The notes beneath the pieces are model-generated. The model made no database searches. It had not been told where the DNA came from and saw nothing but the letters and a program-made list of their open reading frames with translations. A stretch of DNA of 64,000 nucleotides. It comes from Natrinema versiforme (GTDB lineage Archaea; Halobacteriota; Halobacteria; Halobacteriales; Natrialbaceae). Made by a program: the position numbers and the translations under genes. The first letter of the stretch is position 1. Each line of letters begins with the position of its first letter. Below are positions 4,087-57,170 of the stretch, one piece after another. Where the stretch lies: contig NZ_CP040330.1 of the NCBI RefSeq assembly GCF_005576615.1, forward strand, positions 2,852,001 to 2,916,000, in the 5' to 3' direction.

Positions 4087-5868
4087 TCAGCGCGGGTCCG
4101 CGAGGAGCGAGTCGTCCGCGACCGCGTCGGCGAGTCCGAAGCGCTCGACGGTCGCTCGAGTCGGCCGGCCGTCGGGTCCCCAGCCTCGCTTCCGATAGTA
4201 GCGCTCGCGGGCCGTCTCGAACCACTCGTCGTCGACGGCCGATCCGGCGTTGGGCCCCGACTCGAGGGGCTCGCGGAGAGGTGCGGGCAGTTCGTCAGCT
4301 GCCCGCCCCAGCCCCTCCCGGACGTTGAACAGGCGAGTCAGGGTCCAGACCCGTTCTCCGACAGTCAGGGGGCCGCCCGCCGTCTCGAGTCCGACCGCGT
4401 CCAACCACTCCGCGCCGAGGTCGTCGAACGCCTCGCCGACGAAATCGTCCGCGATGAGACACCAGAGGGCCGAGCGCCGGTTCTGCTCCTCGATGACGGC
4501 CGCCGCCGCGCGGTCGGGACTCCACCGCCCGTCGAACGCCTCCCGCTCGATCGGGCGGGCTCGGCGGTGACAGGCCCCGCGGTCGCTGGTGGCGTACGCG
4601 AGCGCCATGCTCCGTGCGCCGCGCGGATCGTACGCCGGCAGCGCCATCGCCTTGACCGTCGGGACGAGGTCGTCCCCGCCGAACCGTTCCGCCGCCGCGT
4701 CGACGCCGTCTGCGAGCGCGTCGCCGACCGGCGTGTCCCGCGCGGCGATTTCCTCGAGCAACTCCCGAGCAGCGTCGGGGTCGCCGAAGGAGATCGAGCG
4801 CTCGAGCAGGTCCGCGTCGGCGGCCTTGATCGCCCACGCGACCGCGCTGCCGGCGCTGATGAGGTCGATGCCGAGCCGGTCGCAGGTGCGGCCGAGTTCC
4901 GCGACGGCGTCGAACTCGTCGATGCCAAGCCCCGCGCCCAGCGACATCGCGGTGGCCCCGCGCGGGACGTAGTCGCCGTCGTCGGTCTCGACGCGGAAGC
5001 CGCCGGGCTCGCCGGCGCTGTCGTCATTACTGTCGCCGCCGTCGTACTCTCGCCCGGTCATTCGCTCCCTGACCGCAGCGATGCCGATCCCGTCGGTTCC
5101 CTCGAACCGGCCGTCCTCCCAGCCGCGGGTCGAGAGCGCGCCGATCTCGTTCGCGAAATCGACGGTTTCGGCCGTCCCGCTCGCCTCGAGCCACCGTCCG
5201 GTCTCGGCGTCGCGGTACCGCTCGGCGTACGCCTCGCGCAGGTCCGCAAGTCCCTCGGGCGGCTCCCCCCGCGCGACGACGGCCTTCAACCGCTTCGAGC
5301 CCATCACGGCGCCGGCACCGCCCCTGCCCGCGTGGTGGTCCCCCTCGTCGGAGGCGATCGTCGCGGAGGCGACCCGCCGTTCGCCCGCCGGGCCGATGCA
5401 GGCGACCGACGCGTCGGGGAACGCCGCGGCCGTCTCGAGGGTGTCCTCGCCCCACGCGTCGGCGGGTTCGACGGTCGCCGTCCCGTCCTCGACGACGAGA
5501 CGGACGGGTTCGTCCGCCCGCCCCGTGACGAGCAGTCCGATACTGGGACCGAGCGCGCCGACGAGCGCGTCCGGAAACGAGCCGCCGGCATAGGAATCGA
5601 GGAAGCCGCCGGTCAGCGGCGATTTCGTGATGGCGGCGTATCGCGACTCGCCGGGCAGGTAGCCCGAGAGCGGGCCGAGCATGAACAGGAGGGCGTTCGC
5701 CGGCCCGAGCGGATCGGTCCCCGCCTCGAGTTCCGCGTAGAGGTATCGAGCGCCCAGCCCCTTCCCGCCGACGTACCGGCGGAGCCACGGCTCCGGGACG
5801 GGGACGCGTTCGACCGACTCCGCCGAGAGATCGACCCGGAGGAGTCGGTCGGGAGTAGCGAGTGCCAC
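4087..5868 (-). CDS. Aldehyde:ferredoxin oxidoreductase (AOR) family protein lacking the cluster cysteine triad
   Basis: AOR-family enzymes oxidise aldehydes to acids with a tungsten- or molybdenum-bis-pterin and one [4Fe-4S] cluster. The N-terminal domain is well kept: RYVGGKGLGARYLY near 31-44, ITKSPLTGGFLDSYAGG near 80-96, and a GRGGAGAVMGSKRLKAV pterin segment near 181-197. C-terminal landmarks are also present (LGIDLISAG near 332-340, LAYATSDRGACH near 423-434, Cys470 in SALWC). The CX2CX3C triad expected near residues 265-300 is absent, and no cysteine lies between Cys157 and Cys329. That stretch reads REYDGGDSNDDSAGE instead. The start is GTG. Next upstream on the same strand is yqeC. 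It may be a divergent paralogue with altered electron transfer, or may no longer be an oxidoreductase. Confidence 0.82.
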   Translation of the reverse strand: MALATPDRLLRVDLSAESVERVPVPEPWLRRYVGGKGLGARYLYAELEAGTDPLGPANALLFMLGPLSGYLPGESRYAAITKSPLTGGFLDSYAGGSFPDALVGALGPSIGLLVTGRADEPVRLVVEDGTATVEPADAWGEDTLETAAAFPDASVACIGPAGERRVASATIASDEGDHHAGRGGAGAVMGSKRLKAVVARGEPPEGLADLREAYAERYRDAETGRWLEASGTAETVDFANEIGALSTRGWEDGRFEGTDGIGIAAVRERMTGREYDGGDSNDDSAGEPGGFRVETDDGDYVPRGATAMSLGAGLGIDEFDAVAELGRTCDRLGIDLISAGSAVAWAIKAADADLLERSISFGDPDAARELLEEIAARDTPVGDALADGVDAAAERFGGDDLVPTVKAMALPAYDPRGARSMALAYATSDRGACHRRARPIEREAFDGRWSPDRAAAAVIEEQNRRSALWCLIADDFVGEAFDDLGAEWLDAVGLETAGGPLTVGERVWTLTRLFNVREGLGRAADELPAPLREPLESGPNAGSAVDDEWFETARERYYRKRGWGPDGRPTRATVERFGLADAVADDSLLADPR

Positions 5869-43005: not shown

Positions 43006-43824
43006 TCAGAGAGCCGGAACGCCGAATAGGAGCGTGAACGCAGCGGCACCGAGCAACACGACGCCCAGCGCGACGGCGACGTCGTCACCGTCGGGGGCCA
43101 GTCGCTCGAGCGAGACGACGAGCGTCAGGCCGACCATCACGAGGGGGTTCATCGTTCCCAGAACGACCATGAGCGCGAACAGCGGCCACGTACAACCGAT
43201 GCAGTTGACGGCGTATCGGACGCCGTCGCGGGCCATCCGAGCGAGTTCGGGGCGGTGTGGGGCCGACTGGCGGCAGCCACACCGCGCGAGGAGGTCGCGT
43301 TTCAGCGACGTGAACTGGTAGCCGCCGGCGAACGCGAGCGAGCCACCGATACCGACGACGCTGGCGTCGACACCCAGCACCGACGCGGTCAGCAGGCCGC
43401 GGATCGAGAGCAGATACTCGACCGCCAGCGGGACTGCGCCGACCAGCGTCCAGACGAGGCCGTACGCGCCGAGGAACGCGGCGATCGAGGGCAGGAAGAC
43501 GGACGGTGAGTCACACAGTTCGTCACGGTGGCGGCGGACGACCGGCACGAGCGACGGGAGCATCATCGCCAGCATCATCGTTCCCCACATGAGCAGGTAC
43601 GCGACGAGACCGGTGAGGCCGTTCGCCGTCGCCAGCGCCTCGGGAACGCCGGGCGCACGCATCGGGGCCTCGAGGCCGGCAGGGGCCGGTCCCAGTCCGG
43701 GGAGCCACCCCTCGAAGAGGACGAGCCACAGCAGGGCGGACAGCGAGAGGACGAACGCGTCCGCGACCGGGAACGCGTCGAAATCGATACGATCACTGCA
43801 CGGAAGTGAATTATCGAGAACCAT
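43006..43824 (-). CDS. DUF2182 integral membrane protein
   Basis: A 272-residue polytopic membrane protein of the DUF2182 family. It has about six hydrophobic segments, with the hallmark MWGTMMLAMMLPSLVPVVRRHRDEL, YQFTSLKRDLLARCGCRQ, and VNCIGCTWPLFALMVVLGTMNPLVM, where paired cysteines (CGC and CIGC) could bind a metal. The family is thought to bind or handle metal, but the function is unproven. It is downstream of the beta-propeller gene on the same strand, separated by about 80 bp. Confidence 0.82.
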   Translation of the reverse strand: MVLDNSLPCSDRIDFDAFPVADAFVLSLSALLWLVLFEGWLPGLGPAPAGLEAPMRAPGVPEALATANGLTGLVAYLLMWGTMMLAMMLPSLVPVVRRHRDELCDSPSVFLPSIAAFLGAYGLVWTLVGAVPLAVEYLLSIRGLLTASVLGVDASVVGIGGSLAFAGGYQFTSLKRDLLARCGCRQSAPHRPELARMARDGVRYAVNCIGCTWPLFALMVVLGTMNPLVMVGLTLVVSLERLAPDGDDVAVALGVVLLGAAAFTLLFGVPAL

Positions 43825-43904: not shown

Positions 43905-45179
43905 TTACGAGCTCCCGTCACGGTCGCTCGAGCGAGCGCGCCGATCGCGCTCGAGGATGGCACCGCCGGCACCGACGGCGACGTCGACGGAAACCGTCGC
44001 CAGCCCGTCGTCGACATCGTCGCTCGAGCGGGCGAGCGCGAGTCCGCGAAGCGACTGTTCGGTGGGGGCCTCGAGTCGGGTCCAGCGGACGCTCTTGTCG
44101 CGTTCGTAGATCCGGCCGCCGGTGGCGACCGCGACCGCGTCCGTCCCGACCGATCGGATCGCCTGCAGCGCGCCCTGTCCGACGTGCAGCGGCGTCCAGT
44201 TCTCACAGTGGGGATCGTACCGGTAGGCGATGCCGTCGGCACCGGCGATGAACACGGAGTCCGTGCCGGCCCAGACGTCCTGGAAGTCGACCTGTGCGTT
44301 CCGGACGCCGATCCGGTCCCACTCCTCGGGGTCGCTGTCGGTGGGTTCGGTGTCCGCCGGCTGGTCATCTCTGGATCCGGAATCCGTCGTGTCCTCGGCG
44401 GCCGTAGTATCGTCCGCAGCCTCGCTCGAGGGGTCGGAATCGTCCGAGTCGCCGTCCGCGGGTTCGGAGTAGGCGCCGCCGCTGGTGTCGACGGCGTAGA
44501 ACCCGTCCGGCCCCGCGGTCAGGCCGGGAATCGTCGACCCGCCGCCGGGTTTGACCACCTCGCCCCAGACCGGACAGCCGTCTTCGACGGCGCAGTCGAG
44601 CACCTCTCCGGACCCGTTGGCGACCCGGACTCGCTCCTCGCCGGTCTTCCCGGTGACGGCGATGGCCTCCCACGTGCTCGTCTTCTCCATCGGCGCCGAG
44701 TAGTCGCTGAGGTGGCCGTCGGCCACGTCGTAGTAGCCGAGCGCACCGCTGTCGCCGGCGAACCAGAGCCGACAGCCGTCGTCGGTCGTCGCGATGGACC
44801 GGAGGGTGTTCTCCGAGACGCCCGGCCCGCGCTCCAAGAGGATCCGCCACCCGTCGGGAGCCCGGTGGAGCAGGAGGCCGCCTTCGCCGCAGGCGTACGG
44901 ACCGTCCTGCCCGTGGACGACGCCGTGGAGGGTCCGCGACGTCGGCGATTCGACGGCCTCCCAGCCGCTTCGATCGCCGTCATCCCGGTCGTCACGGCTC
45001 CGGTCGGTGGCGCTCGAGTCGGGTTGCATTTCGGCGTCGAGATCACCTCCGTCGGCTCGCCGGTCCGCCGCGTCGTCACCGCTCTCGTCCCCTCCGTCGT
45101 CGCGCCCGTCCGTCGCCGGGCCGACGCGCTGGAGCCAGTCGAGCGCATCCGTCAGCGACTCGTCGAGGCGGTCGATCAC
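43905..45179 (-). CDS. Cytoplasmic beta-propeller-like protein, GTGA-coupled to GDH-like gene
   Basis: A 424-residue protein. It starts at GTG (MIDRLDESLTDALDWLQRVG) with no signal peptide, then an acidic linker of about 60 residues, then repeats of propeller type (DGPYACGEGGLLLHRA, LWFAGDSGALGYYDVADGHLSDYSAPMEKTSTWEAI, VFIAGADGIAYRYDP). It is clearly homologous to the exported protein at 56199-57170. An acidic insert separates two halves. The start overlaps the GDH-like stop by 4 bp (GTGA), so the two are co-translated. A scaffold or partner of the GDH-like protein is the best guess. Confidence 0.75.
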   Translation of the reverse strand: MIDRLDESLTDALDWLQRVGPATDGRDDGGDESGDDAADRRADGGDLDAEMQPDSSATDRSRDDRDDGDRSGWEAVESPTSRTLHGVVHGQDGPYACGEGGLLLHRAPDGWRILLERGPGVSENTLRSIATTDDGCRLWFAGDSGALGYYDVADGHLSDYSAPMEKTSTWEAIAVTGKTGEERVRVANGSGEVLDCAVEDGCPVWGEVVKPGGGSTIPGLTAGPDGFYAVDTSGGAYSEPADGDSDDSDPSSEAADDTTAAEDTTDSGSRDDQPADTEPTDSDPEEWDRIGVRNAQVDFQDVWAGTDSVFIAGADGIAYRYDPHCENWTPLHVGQGALQAIRSVGTDAVAVATGGRIYERDKSVRWTRLEAPTEQSLRGLALARSSDDVDDGLATVSVDVAVGAGGAILERDRRARSSDRDGSS

Positions 45180-46459
45180 CGCACCACCTCGTGAGCCGCC
45201 GCGACCCGCGAGACGCCGACGCTGTAGGCCGCTTCCCGCCAGCTCAGATCACACCGCTCGCGGCGCTCTCGCACGTCGTCGACCGCGTCCGCGAGCGCGT
45301 AGTCGAACTCGTTTGTCACACGGGCCTCGCTCGAGCGGTCGCGGCCGACGCTCTCGACCCACTCGAGGTGGGCCGCGATCATCGTCCCGGCCGTCGCCAG
45401 CACGTCGGGGACGACGGCGATGCCGCGATCCTCGAGGGCGCGCTGGCCGCCGGGTGTCACGCTCCCCGTCGCGCCCTCGACGACGAGATCCGCGTGAATC
45501 GCGTCGGCGTTCTCCGCGGTCACCGCCGTCGCGGGCTCCGCGAGGACCAGCACGTCGACGTCCCGCTCGAGGACGTTTTGTGTCCCGGTCATCGTTCCGT
45601 CGTCGTACTCGGCGAGCGTCCCCGGTCGCTGGAGATAGCTGGGGGCGAGGTCCGTGTCGAGGCCGGTCTCGTCGTCGGGAGCGGTCAGCCCCGCTCGATC
45701 GCTACACATCGCGACGACGGTCCCGCCGCGGAACTCGAGCAGGCGAGCGGCCGTCGCGCCGAGGGGGCCGGTGCCGTAGACGGCGATCGTCGCGTCGGAC
45801 AGCGGCCGGTCGTGGTCGGCCTCGAGGACGTCACGGGTCACGCGGGCGACGCTCTGCCCGCTCGCCCGGGAGATCTCTTGAAAGCCGCCGATGGCCGGCG
45901 GCTTGCCGGCGACCGTCGCGTTGTGCGGGCCGTCGACGCGGTCGGCGACGGCGTCGGCGAACCGCGCCATCGTTCGCTCGTCGGTCCCGACGTTCGGGAC
46001 GAAGACGTCGCTGTCGGGTCCGACGCCGGTGACGCGGGCCACGTAGGCTCGAGTGAGTCGGACGCGTTCGTCCCGCGAGAGCGTCGCCGGATCGACCGCG
46101 ACGCCGCCCGCCGCGCCGCCGAAGGGGACGCCCGCGAGCGCGGCGCTGACGGTCGTCGCGGCCGCGAGTCCGGCACAGTCGTCGCCGCGCAGTTCGGAGG
46201 TGTACCGGTGTGGCCCGACGAAGGGGCCGCGAGCGCGGTCGTGGCGCACGCGGTAGCCGTCACAGACGCCGAGCGTGCCGTCGTCGCGTTCGAACTGGAC
46301 CGTGATCCGCTGGCAGTGGTGCGGGTGCAGGAGTCGCTGCTCGATCTCGTCGGGAAGCGAGAGCCGACGCGCGGCGGTCGTCGCGTACGTCCACGGGGCG
46401 TCGAGATCGGGGTCTGTTCGACTGCGTTCGTCGCTGGAGAAATCTGTATCTGGTGTCAT
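45176..46459 (-). CDS. Glu/Leu/Phe/Val dehydrogenase-like protein lacking the catalytic residues
   Basis: A 427-residue homologue of glutamate dehydrogenases. Two domains are visible. The substrate domain includes GPFVGPHRYTSEL (80-92), where KGGIRYHP is expected, and PFGGAAGGVAVDP (112-124), where GGGKGG is expected. The Rossmann domain has IAVYGTGPLGATAARLLEF near 225-243. Compared with ordinary GDH, the three key lysines correspond to Val81, Ser105 and Ala117, and the catalytic Asp to Asn156. NAD contacts remain. It is likely a non-catalytic NAD-sensing or binding protein. ATG 46459 is chosen over 46480. The GTGA overlap links it to the beta-propeller gene. Confidence 0.82.
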   Translation of the reverse strand: MTPDTDFSSDERSRTDPDLDAPWTYATTAARRLSLPDEIEQRLLHPHHCQRITVQFERDDGTLGVCDGYRVRHDRARGPFVGPHRYTSELRGDDCAGLAAATTVSAALAGVPFGGAAGGVAVDPATLSRDERVRLTRAYVARVTGVGPDSDVFVPNVGTDERTMARFADAVADRVDGPHNATVAGKPPAIGGFQEISRASGQSVARVTRDVLEADHDRPLSDATIAVYGTGPLGATAARLLEFRGGTVVAMCSDRAGLTAPDDETGLDTDLAPSYLQRPGTLAEYDDGTMTGTQNVLERDVDVLVLAEPATAVTAENADAIHADLVVEGATGSVTPGGQRALEDRGIAVVPDVLATAGTMIAAHLEWVESVGRDRSSEARVTNEFDYALADAVDDVRERRERCDLSWREAAYSVGVSRVAAAHEVVR

Positions 46460-47146: not shown

Positions 47147-47473
47147 TTAGGGGCCGTATTCCTTCCGGTGCTCGCGGTAGAGCACGGCGAGGAAGGCACC
47201 GAGGGGGACGAGCCCGAGAATGACGAGCAACAGCCCGGCGACGACGGTCGCGGCCAACTGGACGCTCGCGACGAAGTACGTCAACACGGCGACCGCGCCC
47301 GCGATCAGCAGCGCCACGCTCGAGACCACGAGGCCGAAGCTCAGCTTTCGAAACTGCCACTCGAGGTTCTCCGAGCGGTTCAACAGCCGGATCAGGACGA
47401 CGACCGGCGGGATCGTCAGGGCGATCAGTTGCAGGAGCATCAGTGCGACGTCGGTGCTGACAGTGGTTGACAT
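47147..47473 (-). CDS. Small membrane protein (108 aa), three helices
   Basis: A 108-residue protein with an N-terminal hydrophobic segment (DVALMLLQLIALTIPPVVVLIRLL) and two more (LSFGLVVSSVALLIAGAVAVL; TVVAGLLLVILGLVPLGAFLAVL), ending LYREHRKEYGP. No family is recognised. It lies between the heme-copper oxidase gene and the PadR-like gene on the minus strand, and may be part of the same transcript. The upstream in-frame extension is rejected because it overlaps the oxidase gene in an arginine-rich frame. Confidence 0.65.
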   Translation of the reverse strand: MSTTVSTDVALMLLQLIALTIPPVVVLIRLLNRSENLEWQFRKLSFGLVVSSVALLIAGAVAVLTYFVASVQLAATVVAGLLLVILGLVPLGAFLAVLYREHRKEYGP

Positions 47474-47684: not shown

Positions 47685-49244
47685 TCAGTCGCGATCGCGG
47701 GGACTCGACCGCCATTCGCGCGTGTGAGTGGGGCCGCTCTCGAGGTCCCATGGATCGTCGGAGGCCGGTTCGCCGACCCACAGCGATCGACCGAGATTCG
47801 CGAGAAACACAAGTTGACCGGCGGCGATGACGTACGCTCCGACGGTCGCGAGTTGCTGCAGCGGCGCGTAGGCCGCCGGATAGGTCGCGACGCGTCGGGG
47901 GAGCTGTGCGAGCCCGACGAGCAAGAGCGCGCCGAAGGTCACGGCGACCCCGACAATCGTGAGCCAGCCGTGCAGGCGGGCCAGCCCCGGCTCGAGCCGA
48001 CAGTCGGTGAGCAGGGGGAACCAGTAGTACGCGCCGGCGACGAGCGCGAGCCCGACGAACCCGGCAAGTAGCAGGTGGAAGTGCGCGACGACGTAGTAGG
48101 TGCCGGTGTAGCGGACGTTGATCGGGACGGCGGCGAGGAAGACGCCGGTGACGCCGCCGACGACGAAGAAGCCGACGGCGGAAAGCACCGCGAGCATGGG
48201 CGCGGTGTCCCGGATCGAGCCGCCCCACAGGGTGACGAGCCACGTACAGAGCTTCGCGGAACTCGGGACGGCCACCGCCAGCGTGGTGAGCATGAAGACC
48301 GTCCGAATCGACGGGCTCATCCCGGTCACGAACAGGTGGTGGCCCCAGACGGTAAACGAGACGACGCCGATCGCGAGCGTCGAGTAGACCGACGACCGGC
48401 GGCCGAACAGTCGCCGCCCGGCGAACCGCGGGAGGACGTGGCTCGCGATCCCCATCGGCGGCAGGACCAGCACGTACACCAGCGGGTGGGCGAAGAACCA
48501 GAACAGGCGTTGCCAGCCCAGCGGCCCGCCACCGCCGACGAGGAACCCGGTCCCCAGCGACCGATCGGCAAGCAGCAGGGCGACCGTCGCGGCCAGCACC
48601 GGGAACGCGACCAGCGCCATCGCGGCGGCCGTCAACACCGTCCACGTGAACGTGTCGACGTCGAGCCACCGGATCTCGCGCCGCCGCAGGACCGTGACGA
48701 CGAGGTTCGCCGCCGTCGCCGCGGTCCCGACGGCGACGAGCGCGAGCCCGACGAGGACGGCGTCGACCGCGGGGTTCGACGAGAGAAGACTCAGCGGCGG
48801 ATACAGCGTCCACCCGCTCGCGACCGGCTCGAGCCCCGCGATCCCGAGAATCCCGCCGATAGTGCCCGATCGAATCGCCAGCGCCGCCGGGACCTGCAGC
48901 CAGAACGCCCAAGCGCCGAGCAGCGGGAACGCAGTCCCGTCGGCCTCGATCAGCGGGGGGACGGCGGCGTACGCGAACCCCCAGATCGCCGGCAGCGCGA
49001 ACAGGAACAGCATCGTCAGTCCGTGGGTCGTGAAGAAGGCGTTGTAGGTCTCTGCCGTCCAGCGGTCGAGCGTCGGCGTGACGAGCGCCGTTCGGAGTAA
49101 CAGGGCGTCGAGTCCGCCCCACAGCCCCATCGCCAGCGCGAATCCGAGGTGCCACCGAGCGAGCCGTCGATGACCGACGTTCGAGAGTCCCGCCAGCGAG
49201 TCGTTCGTCCCCTCGAGCGTTCGTCTCGGCATAGACGGCGTCAT
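47685..49244 (-). CDS. Heme-copper oxidase subunit I-like protein without D-channel residues
   Basis: A 519-residue polytopic protein with about twelve helices. Metal ligands are complete: His74 (TTHGLTML) and His390 for low-spin heme, His388 for the active-site heme (VVAHFHLLL), and His253, His302 and His303 for CuB, with Tyr257 in HPLVY. The K-channel Lys331 (SSAKLCTW) and the propionate Arg pair in LPRRVATYP are kept. Family A D-channel residues are lost: HPEVY is HPLVY (Leu255), and the loop GAPDMAFPR becomes EADGTAFPL. No subunit II gene adjoins. The ATGA overlap with the MFS-like gene fixes the start at 49244. Confidence 0.87.
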   Translation of the reverse strand: MTPSMPRRTLEGTNDSLAGLSNVGHRRLARWHLGFALAMGLWGGLDALLLRTALVTPTLDRWTAETYNAFFTTHGLTMLFLFALPAIWGFAYAAVPPLIEADGTAFPLLGAWAFWLQVPAALAIRSGTIGGILGIAGLEPVASGWTLYPPLSLLSSNPAVDAVLVGLALVAVGTAATAANLVVTVLRRREIRWLDVDTFTWTVLTAAAMALVAFPVLAATVALLLADRSLGTGFLVGGGGPLGWQRLFWFFAHPLVYVLVLPPMGIASHVLPRFAGRRLFGRRSSVYSTLAIGVVSFTVWGHHLFVTGMSPSIRTVFMLTTLAVAVPSSAKLCTWLVTLWGGSIRDTAPMLAVLSAVGFFVVGGVTGVFLAAVPINVRYTGTYYVVAHFHLLLAGFVGLALVAGAYYWFPLLTDCRLEPGLARLHGWLTIVGVAVTFGALLLVGLAQLPRRVATYPAAYAPLQQLATVGAYVIAAGQLVFLANLGRSLWVGEPASDDPWDLESGPTHTREWRSSPRDRD

Positions 49245-50605
49245 CGTCGATCGGAGGTGAACGCGCGTCCCAGTTCGCGCACGCCGAGCAGACCGACCGT
49301 CGTCGCGACGGTGAAGGCCACGACGGGATCGATCGCGTACAGGAGTCCGCCGAGCAGCGGCGCGGGAACAACGGCGACCCGGACCGCCGTCCGGATTTCG
49401 CCGGGGAGCCGCGGGCCGGGAACCGGGCTCGCTCGCCCGCTCGAGCCGACGGTCGGCCGGAGCGGCTCGATGGCGGTGCGACAGCCGAGCAGGCCGAAGA
49501 GGGCGGCGACGACAGCGGCGTTGGCCGGTGCCGCAACGAGCGCCATCGGGAGCAGCGAGAGCGCCGCGAGGCCGACGGCGAGGAGCGCTCGGCGATCGAC
49601 GCGCGAAGCGAGCGCGGGGAACGCGACCGCGCCGAGGGTCGCGCCGGCGGCTTCGACGAGGACGAACAGCCCGAAGACGGCGGCCGGCGCGAGCGAGAGG
49701 CCGCCGACCGAGAGGGCGATCGGCCGGTAGTCGACGACCAGCAGGATCAGAAACGGCGAAATGCCGGCGATCGCGACCCGGACGACCGCGTCGCCGATAA
49801 CGGCCCACCGGCGGCGGTCGGGCAACCGCGAGACGGCGCTTCGAACGACCGTGATCGACGGGTCGGACTCGGTCGTCGCGCCGCCCTCTCGGTCATCGCT
49901 CGCCGCTCCGCCGCCGGAGAGCGGCGATCGGTCGCCGAGGGTGCCGAGCGCGATCGCGCCGACGATGGCGACCGCAGCGCCGGTCGCTGCGACGAGCGCG
50001 AAGCCGGTCCGGACGGTATCGGCGCTCGCGACGGCCGTCGTCGCGAACGTCGCTGCGGCGACGACGCCGAGCGCCCCGAGGACGACCGGCGTTCGCCGAT
50101 CAGAGCCGACGGCTCGAGTCGGGGAGCAGTCGCGGTCTTCGTCGGCTGCCGTCGACGGCGAACTCGTCACCCGGGTGTCGACCGGCCAGAAACCGCGTGC
50201 AGGCCCCCGAACGTGCCACGCCTGCAGGAGCGCGACGCCGATCGCGAGCCAGCCGAGCGCCGAGAGCGGCGTTCCCAACAGCGTATCGAGCGCCGGCGAC
50301 CCCGCCCACGCCAGCAGGCCGACCGCGGCGAGCAGCGCCGACAGCACCGCGACCGCCCTCGCCTCGAGCGGCGTCGAATCGCCGCCGATCGGTCCGCTCG
50401 AGTACTCGGTCGCGGCGACGGCGATCCCGAGGCCGAGGGTCACCAGCGAGCCGACGACGATCGGCCCGTAGCCGAGCGCGGACACGAACTCGGGGAGGTA
50501 GCGTTCGGCCAGGCGAATCAGCCCGTGGGTCGACACGAGGGTCGCGAGGCAGACGAGTCGGACCGGATCGCTCCGTTCGACGGGGTCTATCGAGTGTTGA
50601 GTCAT
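49241..50605 (-). CDS. MFS-like membrane transporter
   Basis: A 454-residue polytopic protein with about twelve hydrophobic segments in two groups, separated by a hydrophilic Asp/Ser/Arg-rich loop in the middle. It begins ERSDPVRLVCLATLVSTHGLIRLAERYL and has ALAAVGFALVAATGAA-like helices. The exact MFS signature between helices 2 and 3 is not clear, so assignment rests on topology. It ends with TGA overlapping the oxidase start (ATGA), so the two are translationally coupled. Confidence 0.65.
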   Translation of the reverse strand: MTQHSIDPVERSDPVRLVCLATLVSTHGLIRLAERYLPEFVSALGYGPIVVGSLVTLGLGIAVAATEYSSGPIGGDSTPLEARAVAVLSALLAAVGLLAWAGSPALDTLLGTPLSALGWLAIGVALLQAWHVRGPARGFWPVDTRVTSSPSTAADEDRDCSPTRAVGSDRRTPVVLGALGVVAAATFATTAVASADTVRTGFALVAATGAAVAIVGAIALGTLGDRSPLSGGGAASDDREGGATTESDPSITVVRSAVSRLPDRRRWAVIGDAVVRVAIAGISPFLILLVVDYRPIALSVGGLSLAPAAVFGLFVLVEAAGATLGAVAFPALASRVDRRALLAVGLAALSLLPMALVAAPANAAVVAALFGLLGCRTAIEPLRPTVGSSGRASPVPGPRLPGEIRTAVRVAVVPAPLLGGLLYAIDPVVAFTVATTVGLLGVRELGRAFTSDRR

Positions 50606-50708: not shown

Positions 50709-52208
50709 TCACTTCAGCCCGCGATCCTCGAGCGCGTAGGCGATCCGCTCGAGGGTCTTGTAGGCGTAGTAGATGACGCCGGCGACGTGGGGTGCGAGTC
50801 GGTTACCGATACGGACGCGCCGATCTGGCTCGAGGACGACGTAGACCTGCACCGCGAGGACCGGGATGGTGACGACGTTGAGGACGGCCGTGTACGTCCC
50901 GGGGACGGTGCCGCCGGCTGCGCTCACTGGCGGGATGAGCCCGAGGCCGCCGAACAGCAGGTGGACTGCGAGACCGGCAGTCACTGCTGCGAGGAAGAAC
51001 GCGACGAAGATCACGGCAGCCATCCGGATCCCGTAGTAGCGGCGATAGGCCTGAACCAGCGGGAGGATCAGCAGGTCCGCGAAGATGAACGCGAGGACGC
51101 CGCCGAAGGAGACGCCGTTCTGCCAGAGAACGACCCCGAAGGGGATGTTCCCGACCGAACAGAGGAAGGTGACGACGCCGACGACGGCACCCAGAACGAC
51201 GTTCGAGACGAGCCGAACGGCGCTGCCCTCGGCACCGACACCGAAGACGGCTGTCCACCAAGCGTTCGGCACCAGCGCGGCCAGCAGGCCGGCGATGAGA
51301 AAGCCCAGCAGGATGTCCCGCCAGAGCATGTCCCACTCGCGGATCGTGTTCGCGGCCGCCGCCCGCCAGCGGTCGCCCGAGAAGAGTTCGGGGCCGGCAG
51401 TGACCGCCTCCCGGTCAGTCGCCGGATCGTACGCGCCCCGACAGCCCTCACAGCAGAAGTACCGCCGTTCGCCATCGACCTCCCGTACGATCGTGTCCTC
51501 GTCGGCCGGATCCGCACGCATGCCACAGGTAGCACACTCGGTCTCCTCGAGTGCCCGGGCGTGCTCTCGTGCGCGTTCGATCCACGCCTCGGGGACGAAC
51601 CGACGGTAGACGATCGCGAGGACGACGATCGCGACGAGGCCGCCGACGATCTCAGCGAGGGCGAACTGCCAGCCCAGCAGGAGCAGAACGACCAAGGCGA
51701 GTTCCAGTACGAGATCCGTACTCGCGAACTGGAACGCCCCCAGACTGGCCGCGGCCGACGCGCCCTTCGTGAACAGCGATCGGGTCATCGAGACCGCCGA
51801 GAACGAGCAACTCGAGGACGACGCGCCGAAGAACGAGCCGTAGGCGACGGCTCGCCAGCTGTCGTCGCCGAGGTAGTCAGTGATCCGGTCCTCGGAGAGG
51901 AACTCCTGGATCGCGCCGGAGAGCGTGAAGCCGAACACGAGCGCCCACCACGTCTCCCAGCCCATCTTGAACGCGATGATCGTGCCGTCGACGAGAGCCA
52001 GCAGGAACGCGCCGAGCAGCCCGACGAGCCGTGCAGCGAGGTCGAGTCCGCCGTCGTTCGGGGCGACCATTCCGGGGCCGGTCAACCGCCCGACGAACGG
52101 GGGACGCCGTCCGTGCTCGATCACCGTCAGTGCCAGTGAGGCGAGCGGTCGTCCCTGTGCGAGCGCGAGGTCTGACGCGTCGATGATCGGATGTAACGCT
52201 GAGAGCAT
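50709..52208 (-). CDS. COG0701 permease with inserted Cys-rich YHS-like domain
   Basis: A 499-residue permease. The two membrane halves (residues 60-205 and 290-430) each carry the COG0701/DUF318 signature: GSFFGASSSSCSFSAVSMT near 124-142, and CSVGNIPFGVVLWQNGVSFGGVLAFIF in the second half. Between them at 220-265 is a YHS-like segment ECATCGMRADPADED, with CATC (Cys225, Cys228) and FCCEGC (Cys252, Cys253, Cys256). COG0701 permeases move arsenic or other soft metals, so metal handling is plausible. The leader is long (about 130 bp to TATA), unlike the other leaderless genes. Confidence 0.85.
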   Translation of the reverse strand: MLSALHPIIDASDLALAQGRPLASLALTVIEHGRRPPFVGRLTGPGMVAPNDGGLDLAARLVGLLGAFLLALVDGTIIAFKMGWETWWALVFGFTLSGAIQEFLSEDRITDYLGDDSWRAVAYGSFFGASSSSCSFSAVSMTRSLFTKGASAAASLGAFQFASTDLVLELALVVLLLLGWQFALAEIVGGLVAIVVLAIVYRRFVPEAWIERAREHARALEETECATCGMRADPADEDTIVREVDGERRYFCCEGCRGAYDPATDREAVTAGPELFSGDRWRAAAANTIREWDMLWRDILLGFLIAGLLAALVPNAWWTAVFGVGAEGSAVRLVSNVVLGAVVGVVTFLCSVGNIPFGVVLWQNGVSFGGVLAFIFADLLILPLVQAYRRYYGIRMAAVIFVAFFLAAVTAGLAVHLLFGGLGLIPPVSAAGGTVPGTYTAVLNVVTIPVLAVQVYVVLEPDRRVRIGNRLAPHVAGVIYYAYKTLERIAYALEDRGLK

Positions 52209-52448: not shown

Positions 52449-52892
52449 TCAGCGGTTCAACAGGCCGATCGCTCGGTGACGGTTGTAGAGGTAGGCGATA
52501 CAGACCGCCACGGTCGAGAGCAGAAACGCGACGATCGCGATCGCGATCGCGATTCCGAACCCGGCCGCCAGCCCGGAGAGCACGCCGAGGAGAAGGGGCG
52601 CGGCGACCGCCGCTCCGACGTAGATCTTGCGGTCGGGGGCCCACGAATCGGTCTCGCTCGCGACGTATTCGACGTCGCGCCAGATCGCGGGCAGCGTCAC
52701 GGCGCCCGTCGCGGTGACGACGATCAGGAGGGCGACGCTCCCCAGACTCGAGGCCACCACCGAGCCGCCGCCGGTGAGGCGAGCGAGCGAGACGATTCCG
52801 AGGAGGCTCAGGGCGGGATAGCCGATCAGGACGTACCAGTACCACGGCGCACGGCCGGTCGGGTCGATCGCTGTGAGATCACCACGTGACAT
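52449..52892 (-). CDS. Four-helix membrane protein (147 aa)
   Basis: A 147-residue protein with four hydrophobic segments (WYWYVLIGYPALSLLGIVSL; VASSLGSVALLIVVTATGAVTL; IYVGAAVAAPLLLGVLSGLAAGFG; IAIAIVAFLLSTVAVCIAYLYN). It is upstream of the permease on the same strand, but with a 240-bp gap. The start at 52892 is chosen over an in-frame start at 52955 because the latter adds a weak polar extension. No function is suggested. Confidence 0.65.
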   Translation of the reverse strand: MSRGDLTAIDPTGRAPWYWYVLIGYPALSLLGIVSLARLTGGGSVVASSLGSVALLIVVTATGAVTLPAIWRDVEYVASETDSWAPDRKIYVGAAVAAPLLLGVLSGLAAGFGIAIAIAIVAFLLSTVAVCIAYLYNRHRAIGLLNR

Positions 52893-52997
52893 GACGCATC
52901 CGCCGTTCGAACCACCCACTGATAAGCTGTCTAGATACATAATATTAGTACACAAAATAACTGAAATAGGCGTCTAGCGTGTCCTATGGGTCCGTAT

Positions 52998-54762: not shown

Positions 54763-56202
54763 ATGACTGACGATCCGTCACACCCAGATTCCGAACGCGC
54801 ACCCGATTCGTCTCCGCCACCCGCGGCGGGCAACACCGCCGATTCCGAGGCGGTCCGCGGAACCGGCCGCTCGAGCGATGACGGCGACTCCGACCGCGAC
54901 GACCGAGACGACTACGACAGCGACGGCCATGACCGCGACGACCACGATACTCGCGACGACCGCGACGGCGGGGACGAGTCCTCGCTCGGCGTCTCCCTCG
55001 TCGGCTACGCGCTCCGACTGACGGCCGCCGCGCTGGTGGTCGGCGGGCGGCTCCTCTGGACCGGCGTCCGGATCGGCTCGCGGTACGTCACCGACACGCC
55101 GTCGCGACGGCGGGGCCGCCGGTGGCTCCTGCTCGAGGGCGATCGGCGGGTGATCGTCGGCTGGTTCGTCGCCGGCGTCTTCGCCGTCGCGCTCGTCCTC
55201 GGGGTTAGCGACGTCATCGGCGTCCGGGAGAGCCGGTTCGTCACGACGATGTTCAGTACGATGATCGCGGGGCTGTTCTCGTTCATCCCGATCGTCGTCG
55301 CGGTCAACCAGCTGATCATCTCGCGGCTGTTCGGCACGCCCGATCGGCTCACCGAGCGGATCGACGGCGTCCAGGCGTTCCGCAGTCGCGTCGAGACACA
55401 GACGGAGGGCGACGGTGTCAGTCCCACCGATCCCGCCCCGTTTCTCGCCCGCCTCGCCGGGACGCTCGGCAGCCGCGCCGACGAACTCGCGACCGAGTGC
55501 GGGGACGACCATCGGCCGACCGACGGCGGCGAGCGCAGCCGCGTCAGCGACGCCGACGACACGCCGATCTCGGCCCTCGAGTCGATCTGTCGCTTCGCGT
55601 CGCGAACGCGCGAGCACACCCGAGACCTCTCCGCGCAGCTCACCGGCGAGACCGAGTCGGTCTTCGCCGTCGTGCTACCGACGATCGACCACGACTACGC
55701 CGGTGCCGCAAACGAGGCGCAGCGGCTCGGTCACCGGTTCGACGAGGAACTGTCGGGCCGGGCCGCGTCGCTGCTCGAGGAACTCCGCGAGCTGTTCGTC
55801 ACCGCGGACGCGACGCGGCAGTACTTCACGACGATCTACCTCCAGCGCGAACTCGCGCGGCTGTCGCGGCTGATTACCTACAGCGGCACCGCCGCGATCC
55901 TGCTCTCGTCGCTGGTCATCATGATCTACGCCAGCGGCTACCCCCCGGTCGCCTTCGAGGGGTGGCTGCTCGTGCTCGTGAGCCTCGCGCTCGCGGTCGC
56001 GTTCAGCCCCCTCGCGGTGCTGTTCGCGTACGTCGTCCGCATCTCGGCCATCCTCAAGCGGACCTCCGCGCCGGGCGCGTTCACGCCGCCGGGCGAGTTC
56101 CACCGGTCGTACGACGCCCGCGGCGCGACCCAGCCCGGCGAGGTGACGGCGACGACTCGAGCGGCCGACGCCGACGACCGGTCGAGCGAGGGCGATCGGT
56201 GA
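54763..56202 (+). CDS. Membrane protein with Asp/His-rich N-terminus, unknown family
   Basis: A 479-residue protein. Residues 1-80 are Asp/Ser/His-rich (SDGDSDRDDRDDYDSDGHDRD and onward), which could bind metal or be disordered. Four hydrophobic segments include WFVAGVFAVALVLGVSDVIG and SRLITYSGTAAILLSSLVIMIYASGY. A conserved-looking central part (RITERIDGVQAFRSRVETQ, FDEELSGRAASLLEELRELF) is cytoplasmic. Downstream it is coupled (GTGA) to a Tat-exported propeller, which suggests the two work together across the membrane. Confidence 0.7.
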   Translation: MTDDPSHPDSERAPDSSPPPAAGNTADSEAVRGTGRSSDDGDSDRDDRDDYDSDGHDRDDHDTRDDRDGGDESSLGVSLVGYALRLTAAALVVGGRLLWTGVRIGSRYVTDTPSRRRGRRWLLLEGDRRVIVGWFVAGVFAVALVLGVSDVIGVRESRFVTTMFSTMIAGLFSFIPIVVAVNQLIISRLFGTPDRLTERIDGVQAFRSRVETQTEGDGVSPTDPAPFLARLAGTLGSRADELATECGDDHRPTDGGERSRVSDADDTPISALESICRFASRTREHTRDLSAQLTGETESVFAVVLPTIDHDYAGAANEAQRLGHRFDEELSGRAASLLEELRELFVTADATRQYFTTIYLQRELARLSRLITYSGTAAILLSSLVIMIYASGYPPVAFEGWLLVLVSLALAVAFSPLAVLFAYVVRISAILKRTSAPGAFTPPGEFHRSYDARGATQPGEVTATTRAADADDRSSEGDR

Positions 56203-57170
56203 CCGGGCGTCACCGGTCCCGGCGCGCCGTCCTCGCAGCGGTCGGGGCGGCGGCCGGATCGCTGTCGATCGCGGGCTGTGCCGACACCGACAGCGAGTGG
56301 GTCGCCGCCGACCCGCCCACCGACGCCGCGCTGGAAGCCGTCGTGACGACCGCCGACGGGGCCTACGCCGTCGGTGAAGACGGGATCGTCCTCGCCCGCG
56401 ACGGCGGCGACTGGACCGTCCGCCTCGAGCGCGGCCTCGGCGGGGCGGGCGACGGCTTGCGCTCCGCGGCGGTCACGAGCAACGGACGAGCCATGTGGGT
56501 CGCCGGCGACAGCGGCGCGCTCGGCTACTACGACGTCGTCGCCGACCGCGCCGTGGACTTCTCCGCACCGAAGGAGAAGACGACCTCGTGGACGGCGGTC
56601 GCCGCCGCCGGATTGGCCGGCGACGAGCGGCTCACGGCCATCAACAGCTCCGGCGAACTCCTCCGGGGCCGGCGCGACGGCGCGACCGTCGACTGGAGCG
56701 ACGTGATCAAACCCGGGTCCGGCTCGAGCGTGACCGACATCGACCTCACGCCGCTGGCGTACGGCTACGTGGTCGACACCGACGGCGGCGTCTTCGAGTC
56801 TCGAGACGGCGGCGTCTCGTGGAGCCGCATCGGGCTCGAGGGCGCGGGAGTCGACTTCGCGACGGTCGCGGCGACGGACAGCGGTCGCGTCTCGGTCGCC
56901 GGCGGCAACGGCGTCGTCTCCACCTACAACGGCGTCGACTGGTCGCGAACGACGCTGGGCGAGCAGCCGATCGCGGCGCTCGCACGGGACCGCGACACCG
57001 CGCTGGCGGTCTCGTCTGCGGGAGTGCTCTACGAGCGCGGCTTCGACGGCTGGGCCGAACTCGCCGACCTCCGGCCGGGGAACGAACTGCGGTCGGTCGC
57101 GCTCGCCACCGCCCGGTCGCCGCAACTGGTCGTCGGCGAGTCCGGAACGATATTCGAACGGCGGTACTGA
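56199..57170 (+). CDS. Tat-exported beta-propeller lipoprotein, paralogue of the 43905 gene
   Basis: A 323-residue protein starting at GTG. The Tat signal SRRAVLAAVGAAAGSLSIAGC ends in a lipobox. The propeller repeats match those of the cytoplasmic paralogue: DGAYAVGEDGIVLARDGGDWTVRLERGLG, WVAGDSGALGYYDVVADRAVDFSAPKEKTTSWTAV, DGGVFESRDGGVSWSRIG. The C-terminal repeat ends QLVVGESGTIFERRY. The start codon overlaps the upstream stop by 4 bp (GTGA). It probably acts outside the membrane with the upstream membrane protein. Confidence 0.82.
   Translation: MTGRHRSRRAVLAAVGAAAGSLSIAGCADTDSEWVAADPPTDAALEAVVTTADGAYAVGEDGIVLARDGGDWTVRLERGLGGAGDGLRSAAVTSNGRAMWVAGDSGALGYYDVVADRAVDFSAPKEKTTSWTAVAAAGLAGDERLTAINSSGELLRGRRDGATVDWSDVIKPGSGSSVTDIDLTPLAYGYVVDTDGGVFESRDGGVSWSRIGLEGAGVDFATVAATDSGRVSVAGGNGVVSTYNGVDWSRTTLGEQPIAALARDRDTALAVSSAGVLYERGFDGWAELADLRPGNELRSVALATARSPQLVVGESGTIFERRY

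Follow-up and report, generated by a model that had tools for sequence, protein, structure and literature searches.

A glutamate dehydrogenase homolog predicted to be non-catalytic within a haloarchaeal haem-copper oxidase gene cluster

Background

Inactive paralogs of glutamate dehydrogenase (GDH) are known as regulatory subunits, GdhA of Thermus being an example. The GdhA protein of Thermus thermophilus is the inactive regulatory subunit of the Thermus GDH (PMC9570180). In the literature searched, no report of a catalytically dead haloarchaeal GDH was found, and none of a GDH-fold protein tied to a cluster of oxidase and propeller genes. The window, a stretch of 64,000 nucleotides from the genome of Natrinema versiforme, encodes a candidate for both, here called GDHL, among the following genes:

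43006-43824, minus strand: DUF2182/PpoB2 membrane protein (Pfam: copper chaperone)
43905-45179, minus strand: beta-propeller protein (YCF48-like), 424 aa, its start overlapping the GDHL stop by 4 nt
45176-46459, minus strand: GDHL, catalytically dead GDH-fold protein, 427 aa
46652-47065, minus strand: PadR-family winged-helix regulator, upstream of GDHL
47147-47473, minus strand: small conserved membrane protein of about 108 aa, flanked by the oxidase and PadR genes
47685-49241, minus strand: haem-copper oxidase subunit I (PF00115)
49241-50605, minus strand: MFS-like transporter
50709-52208, minus strand: ArsP/UPF0718-type permease with a weak central TRASH-like metal-binding match
52449-52955, minus strand: small membrane protein at the cluster start, present in about half of the loci

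Results and discussion

Loss of catalytic and substrate-binding residues

The sequence-only reading of this locus described an uninterrupted gene for a GDH homolog, and both points hold. The minus-strand frame is open from 46459 through to 45176, and its product matches both domains of the ELFV dehydrogenase family in Pfam (PF02812, 1.2e-30, 106.4 bits; PF00208, 5e-35, 121.8 bits), far above the curated cut-offs of 25.3 and 23.4 bits. The nearest NCBIfam family is haloarchaeal GdhB (NF041398), yet the score of 342.4 bits leaves GDHL outside that equivalog family, whose cut-off is 620 bits. The structure predicted from three sequences reaches a pLDDT of only 36, so the integrity of the fold rests on sequence homology. 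A scan of viral contigs found no relative.

The same reading had aligned the three conserved lysines of GDHs with Val81, Ser105 and Ala117, and the catalytic aspartate with Asn156. These assignments are borne out: each of the 24 ordinary haloarchaeal GDHs compared has K, K, K and D in the four columns, which are invariant again in an alignment with 42 GdhB-type sequences. The lysines have not shifted to nearby positions, because the sole lysine among the 427 residues is K186, part of a GKP motif, which excludes a displaced lysine as a stand-in. GDHL thus has no lysine at the three substrate positions of an active ELFV dehydrogenase, and N156 replaces the catalytic aspartate. The claim that all four catalytic positions are lost is therefore correct for the window protein, but not for its family. 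While the three lysines are absent from all 24 orthologs, position 156 is Asp in 13 of them, Gly in seven, Glu in three and Asn in one; loss of the aspartate is not a family trait, since more than half of the members keep it. A fifth loss had been overlooked: the substrate-binding serine, whose column was equated by motif with S380 of C. symbiosum, is Ala363 in 24/24 orthologs and S in 42/42 GdhB-type sequences.

Most columns near the old substrate lysines have become fixed anew (P83, H84, A101, A106, A117, A362, A363 and L365); the remodelled pocket reads GPHRY, GGAAGG and AAHLEW. GDH identity has also been lost diffusely, with only 35% of 207 GDH-invariant columns fully kept in the GDHL family, which counts against the reading preferred below. 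Catalytic columns are lost more often than other GDH-invariant columns (p = 0.016 only, a descriptive contrast and not a strong statistic); cofactor columns are not (p = 0.27). Judged by its sequence, GDHL is almost certainly not a glutamate dehydrogenase. A new enzymatic chemistry, in which the remodelled pocket binds and converts another ligand, would account for pocket columns that are conserved within the family and differ from those of GDHs. This is nevertheless quite unlikely: the old catalytic positions offer no conserved acid-base residue (Ala117 is invariant and position 156 varies), and erosion extends to the cofactor site.

Erosion of the cofactor site

The glycine-rich NAD motif had been read as intact, and GDHL as a non-catalytic NAD-binding sensor. 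The six residues GTGPLG are indeed present in the window protein; the rest of the site is not, D253 being replaced by S, N331 by T and N356 by T, so that the NAD(P) site of an active ELFV dehydrogenase is incomplete. Across the family, GxGxxG is kept in 12 of 24 members and broken in the other 12, with variants such as GTAACG, GCGPAA and GTSTVG. Both cofactor-site asparagines (in EGANG and LANAG; columns 331 and 356) are lost in 24/24 orthologs, and the aspartate after beta-2 (column 253) in 23/24, the window protein included, whereas ordinary GDHs retain all three. A sensor of NAD could draw on the glycine motif of GDHL and of half its family; it is very unlikely all the same, because the motif drifts and the other cofactor residues are gone from the window protein too, which leaves that proposal unsupported. 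The sequence points to a remodelled substrate pocket combined with an eroded cofactor site; an NAD sensor would predict the reverse.

Distribution and selection

Orthologs of GDHL were found in 24 of 125 Natrialbaceae genomes (the window and 23 others), with identities of roughly 47-87% versus at most 44% for ordinary GDHs. They form one clade with support of 100/99. A GDH with 45% identity in genome G200 was rejected as a member; it lies outside the cluster and groups with ordinary GDHs. dN/dS (NG86) is 0.08-0.27 for GDHL pairs and of the same order, 0.08-0.20, for pairs of real GDHs.

A decaying pseudogene might be suspected from the greater diversity of the GDHL family (mean column entropy of 0.99 bits versus 0.63 bits in real GDHs). 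Against this, the frame is open in all genomes fetched, dN/dS is far below 1, the new motifs are fixed and coupling to the next gene is conserved; decay, already disfavored, is extremely improbable. The earlier view that GDHL is non-catalytic rather than randomly decaying is thus well supported, since the losses are fixed in 24 orthologs that share a conserved locus and evolve under purifying selection, as expected of a pseudoenzyme kept by selection.

A conserved oxidase gene cluster

All 24 GDHL loci share a collinear cluster of genes for the permease, MFS transporter, oxidase subunit I, small membrane protein, PadR regulator, GDHL and propeller, followed in most loci by the DUF2182 gene. 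An oxidase of the cluster type (at least 65% identity) was found in exactly the 24 GDHL-bearing genomes. No gene for subunit II of the haem-copper oxidase was found in or near the cluster. Several neighbors are linked to metals: the DUF2182 protein, the TRASH-like permease and, in Haloprofundus, a gene with a heavy-metal-associated domain. The same cluster, propeller included, occurs without any GDH in many haloarchaea.

Subunit I encoded at 47685-49241 reads HPLVY and retains the CuB histidines and tyrosine; the common motif of A-type oxidases is HPEVY. Apparent in-frame stops in the oxidase matches, one in each of two loci, were dismissed as terminal stops overrun by the alignment. A link between the cluster and denitrification was dropped, no evidence for it having been found. 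The DUF2182 gene of genome G023 (L053, reverse strand, about 4663-5471) falls into two reading frames, possibly through a frameshift or an assembly error. The cluster of genome G410 also contains a Na+/H+-exchanger-type antiporter and a TrkA-C domain protein (L108, 10902-12605). The RefSeq protein WP_226778228.1 (L126, 8272-9747), named cbb3-type cytochrome c oxidase subunit I, has no Pfam match and is probably misnamed.

Translational coupling of GDHL to the beta-propeller, proposed from the window, extends to the family: the 4-nt overlap between the GDHL stop and the propeller start is kept in 22 of the 23 other loci (23/24 with the window counted, genome G120 being the exception). No export signal is visible in this propeller. 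A partial model shows a propeller fold but is only half confident (pLDDT 56), and its Foldseek matches are many generic propellers with YCF48 structures among them; for both reasons, no blade number is claimed. A paralog of the propeller, encoded in the cluster of N. zhouii, matches PF14870. The literature searched contained nothing that connects YCF48 to haloarchaea. Because the cluster often occurs without a GDH, the older of the two partners is probably the propeller.

A second YCF48-like propeller is encoded at 56199-57170 on the plus strand, its GTG start overlapping the stop of the gene at 54763-56202 by 4 nt. Its N-terminus resembles a lipobox-bearing Tat signal (RR...AGC), and this protein may therefore act outside the cell as the counterpart of the GDHL-coupled propeller.

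Origin and proposed role

Two genomes from a different family (G410 and G430) carry, in the slot beside PadR, a GDH in which the residues K, K, K and D, the serine, the glycine motif and the asparagines are all intact. The GDH from G410 does not fall within the ordinary GdhB clade (99/99 and 100/99) and branches on the GDHL side of the tree. Together, the intact slot gene and its placement fit a single recruitment of an active GDH whose catalysis was lost later; as judged from the sequences and their tree, this order of events is suggested. The slot of genome G029 (L109) contains a GDH-like gene that has degenerated differently, with L, Q and M for the lysines, Gly for the aspartate, and the serine and glycine motif kept. 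It is possibly an independent loss of the lysines; its branch is long and its place in the tree unsure.

In the proposed sequence of events, a GdhB-like GDH would have been recruited into a haloarchaeal cluster encoding haem-copper oxidase subunit I, PadR and a YCF48-like propeller. The Natrialbaceae lineage lacks the three lysines, the substrate serine and the cofactor Asn/Asp residues, but has kept full-length homology, its place in the operon and the translational link to the propeller; that the losses came after recruitment is suggested by the tree. GDHL now most probably serves the propeller as a non-enzymatic partner, structural or regulatory, by way of its surfaces and of a remodelled pocket that would no longer bind glutamate, and the putative role of the pair would be to assemble the oxidase or load it with metal.

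Since GDHL has kept its place in the cluster of 24 archaea despite the lost residues, re-use as a non-enzymatic part is probable. From the coupling, which like co-transcription bears on interaction indirectly, and from the strict co-occurrence and the neighboring genes, we infer that GDHL works together with the propeller when the oxidase is assembled or receives its metal. With moderate confidence, GDHL is best seen as a fixed pseudoenzyme, a protein of GDH fold that partners the coupled YCF48-like propeller non-enzymatically in one of these two processes. A wider and more tentative proposal, which is possible though doubtful, is that an oxidase assembly cluster captured a GDH that stays active in one lineage and elsewhere became a non-enzymatic GDH-propeller subunit, its re-specified pocket serving in sensing or scaffolding of oxidase maturation.

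Intact GDHs in two genomes and dead ones in 24 share one slot, and the steps from enzyme to non-enzyme are thereby directly testable. Annotation of the cluster, which is common among haloarchaea, mostly reads hypothetical; its named parts provide a handle on a putative respiratory or metal system. RefSeq gives a GDHL-type protein a dehydrogenase-domain name (in one annotated plasmid record), which could mislead metabolic models.

Comparison with known systems

The ordinary family nearest to GDHL is haloarchaeal GdhB (NF041398), with which it shares the same two domains and full-length homology (342 bits). Unlike GdhB, GDHL falls short of the 620-bit cut-off, lacks the three lysines, the serine and the cofactor Asn/Asp residues, and lies in a different operon.

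By analogy, the closest precedent for GDHL would be the inactive GdhA of Thermus GDH. T. thermophilus GdhA (PDB 3AOE) is likewise an inactive GDH-fold paralog beside active GDHs in one cell, the likeness being one of inactivity. GDHL could accordingly be pictured as a regulatory subunit in a mixed hexamer with an active GdhB, given this precedent (PMC9570180), the three ordinary GDHs that the N. versiforme genome encodes besides GDHL and the full-length homology that GDHL has kept. Such a role is unlikely, however. GDHL is at most 42% identical to the GdhB-type GDHs of the same cell and 34% identical to the third, and its presence tracks the oxidase, not GDH. Thermus GdhA pairs with GdhB and has a leucine site, whereas GDHL is coupled to a propeller instead of a GDH gene, in an oxidase cluster, and lacks the arginine of that site: with positions mapped by motif and not by structure, the leucine-binding arginine (column 138) is A, S or Q in 24/24 orthologs, although column 169 is Asp in 23/24.

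The propeller that partners GDHL in the preferred reading invites comparison with the YCF48/HCF136 propellers of photosystem II assembly, whose fold it matches among those of many other propellers. The hosts of GDHL differ from those systems in having no photosystem; a haem-copper oxidase subunit is encoded in the cluster instead.
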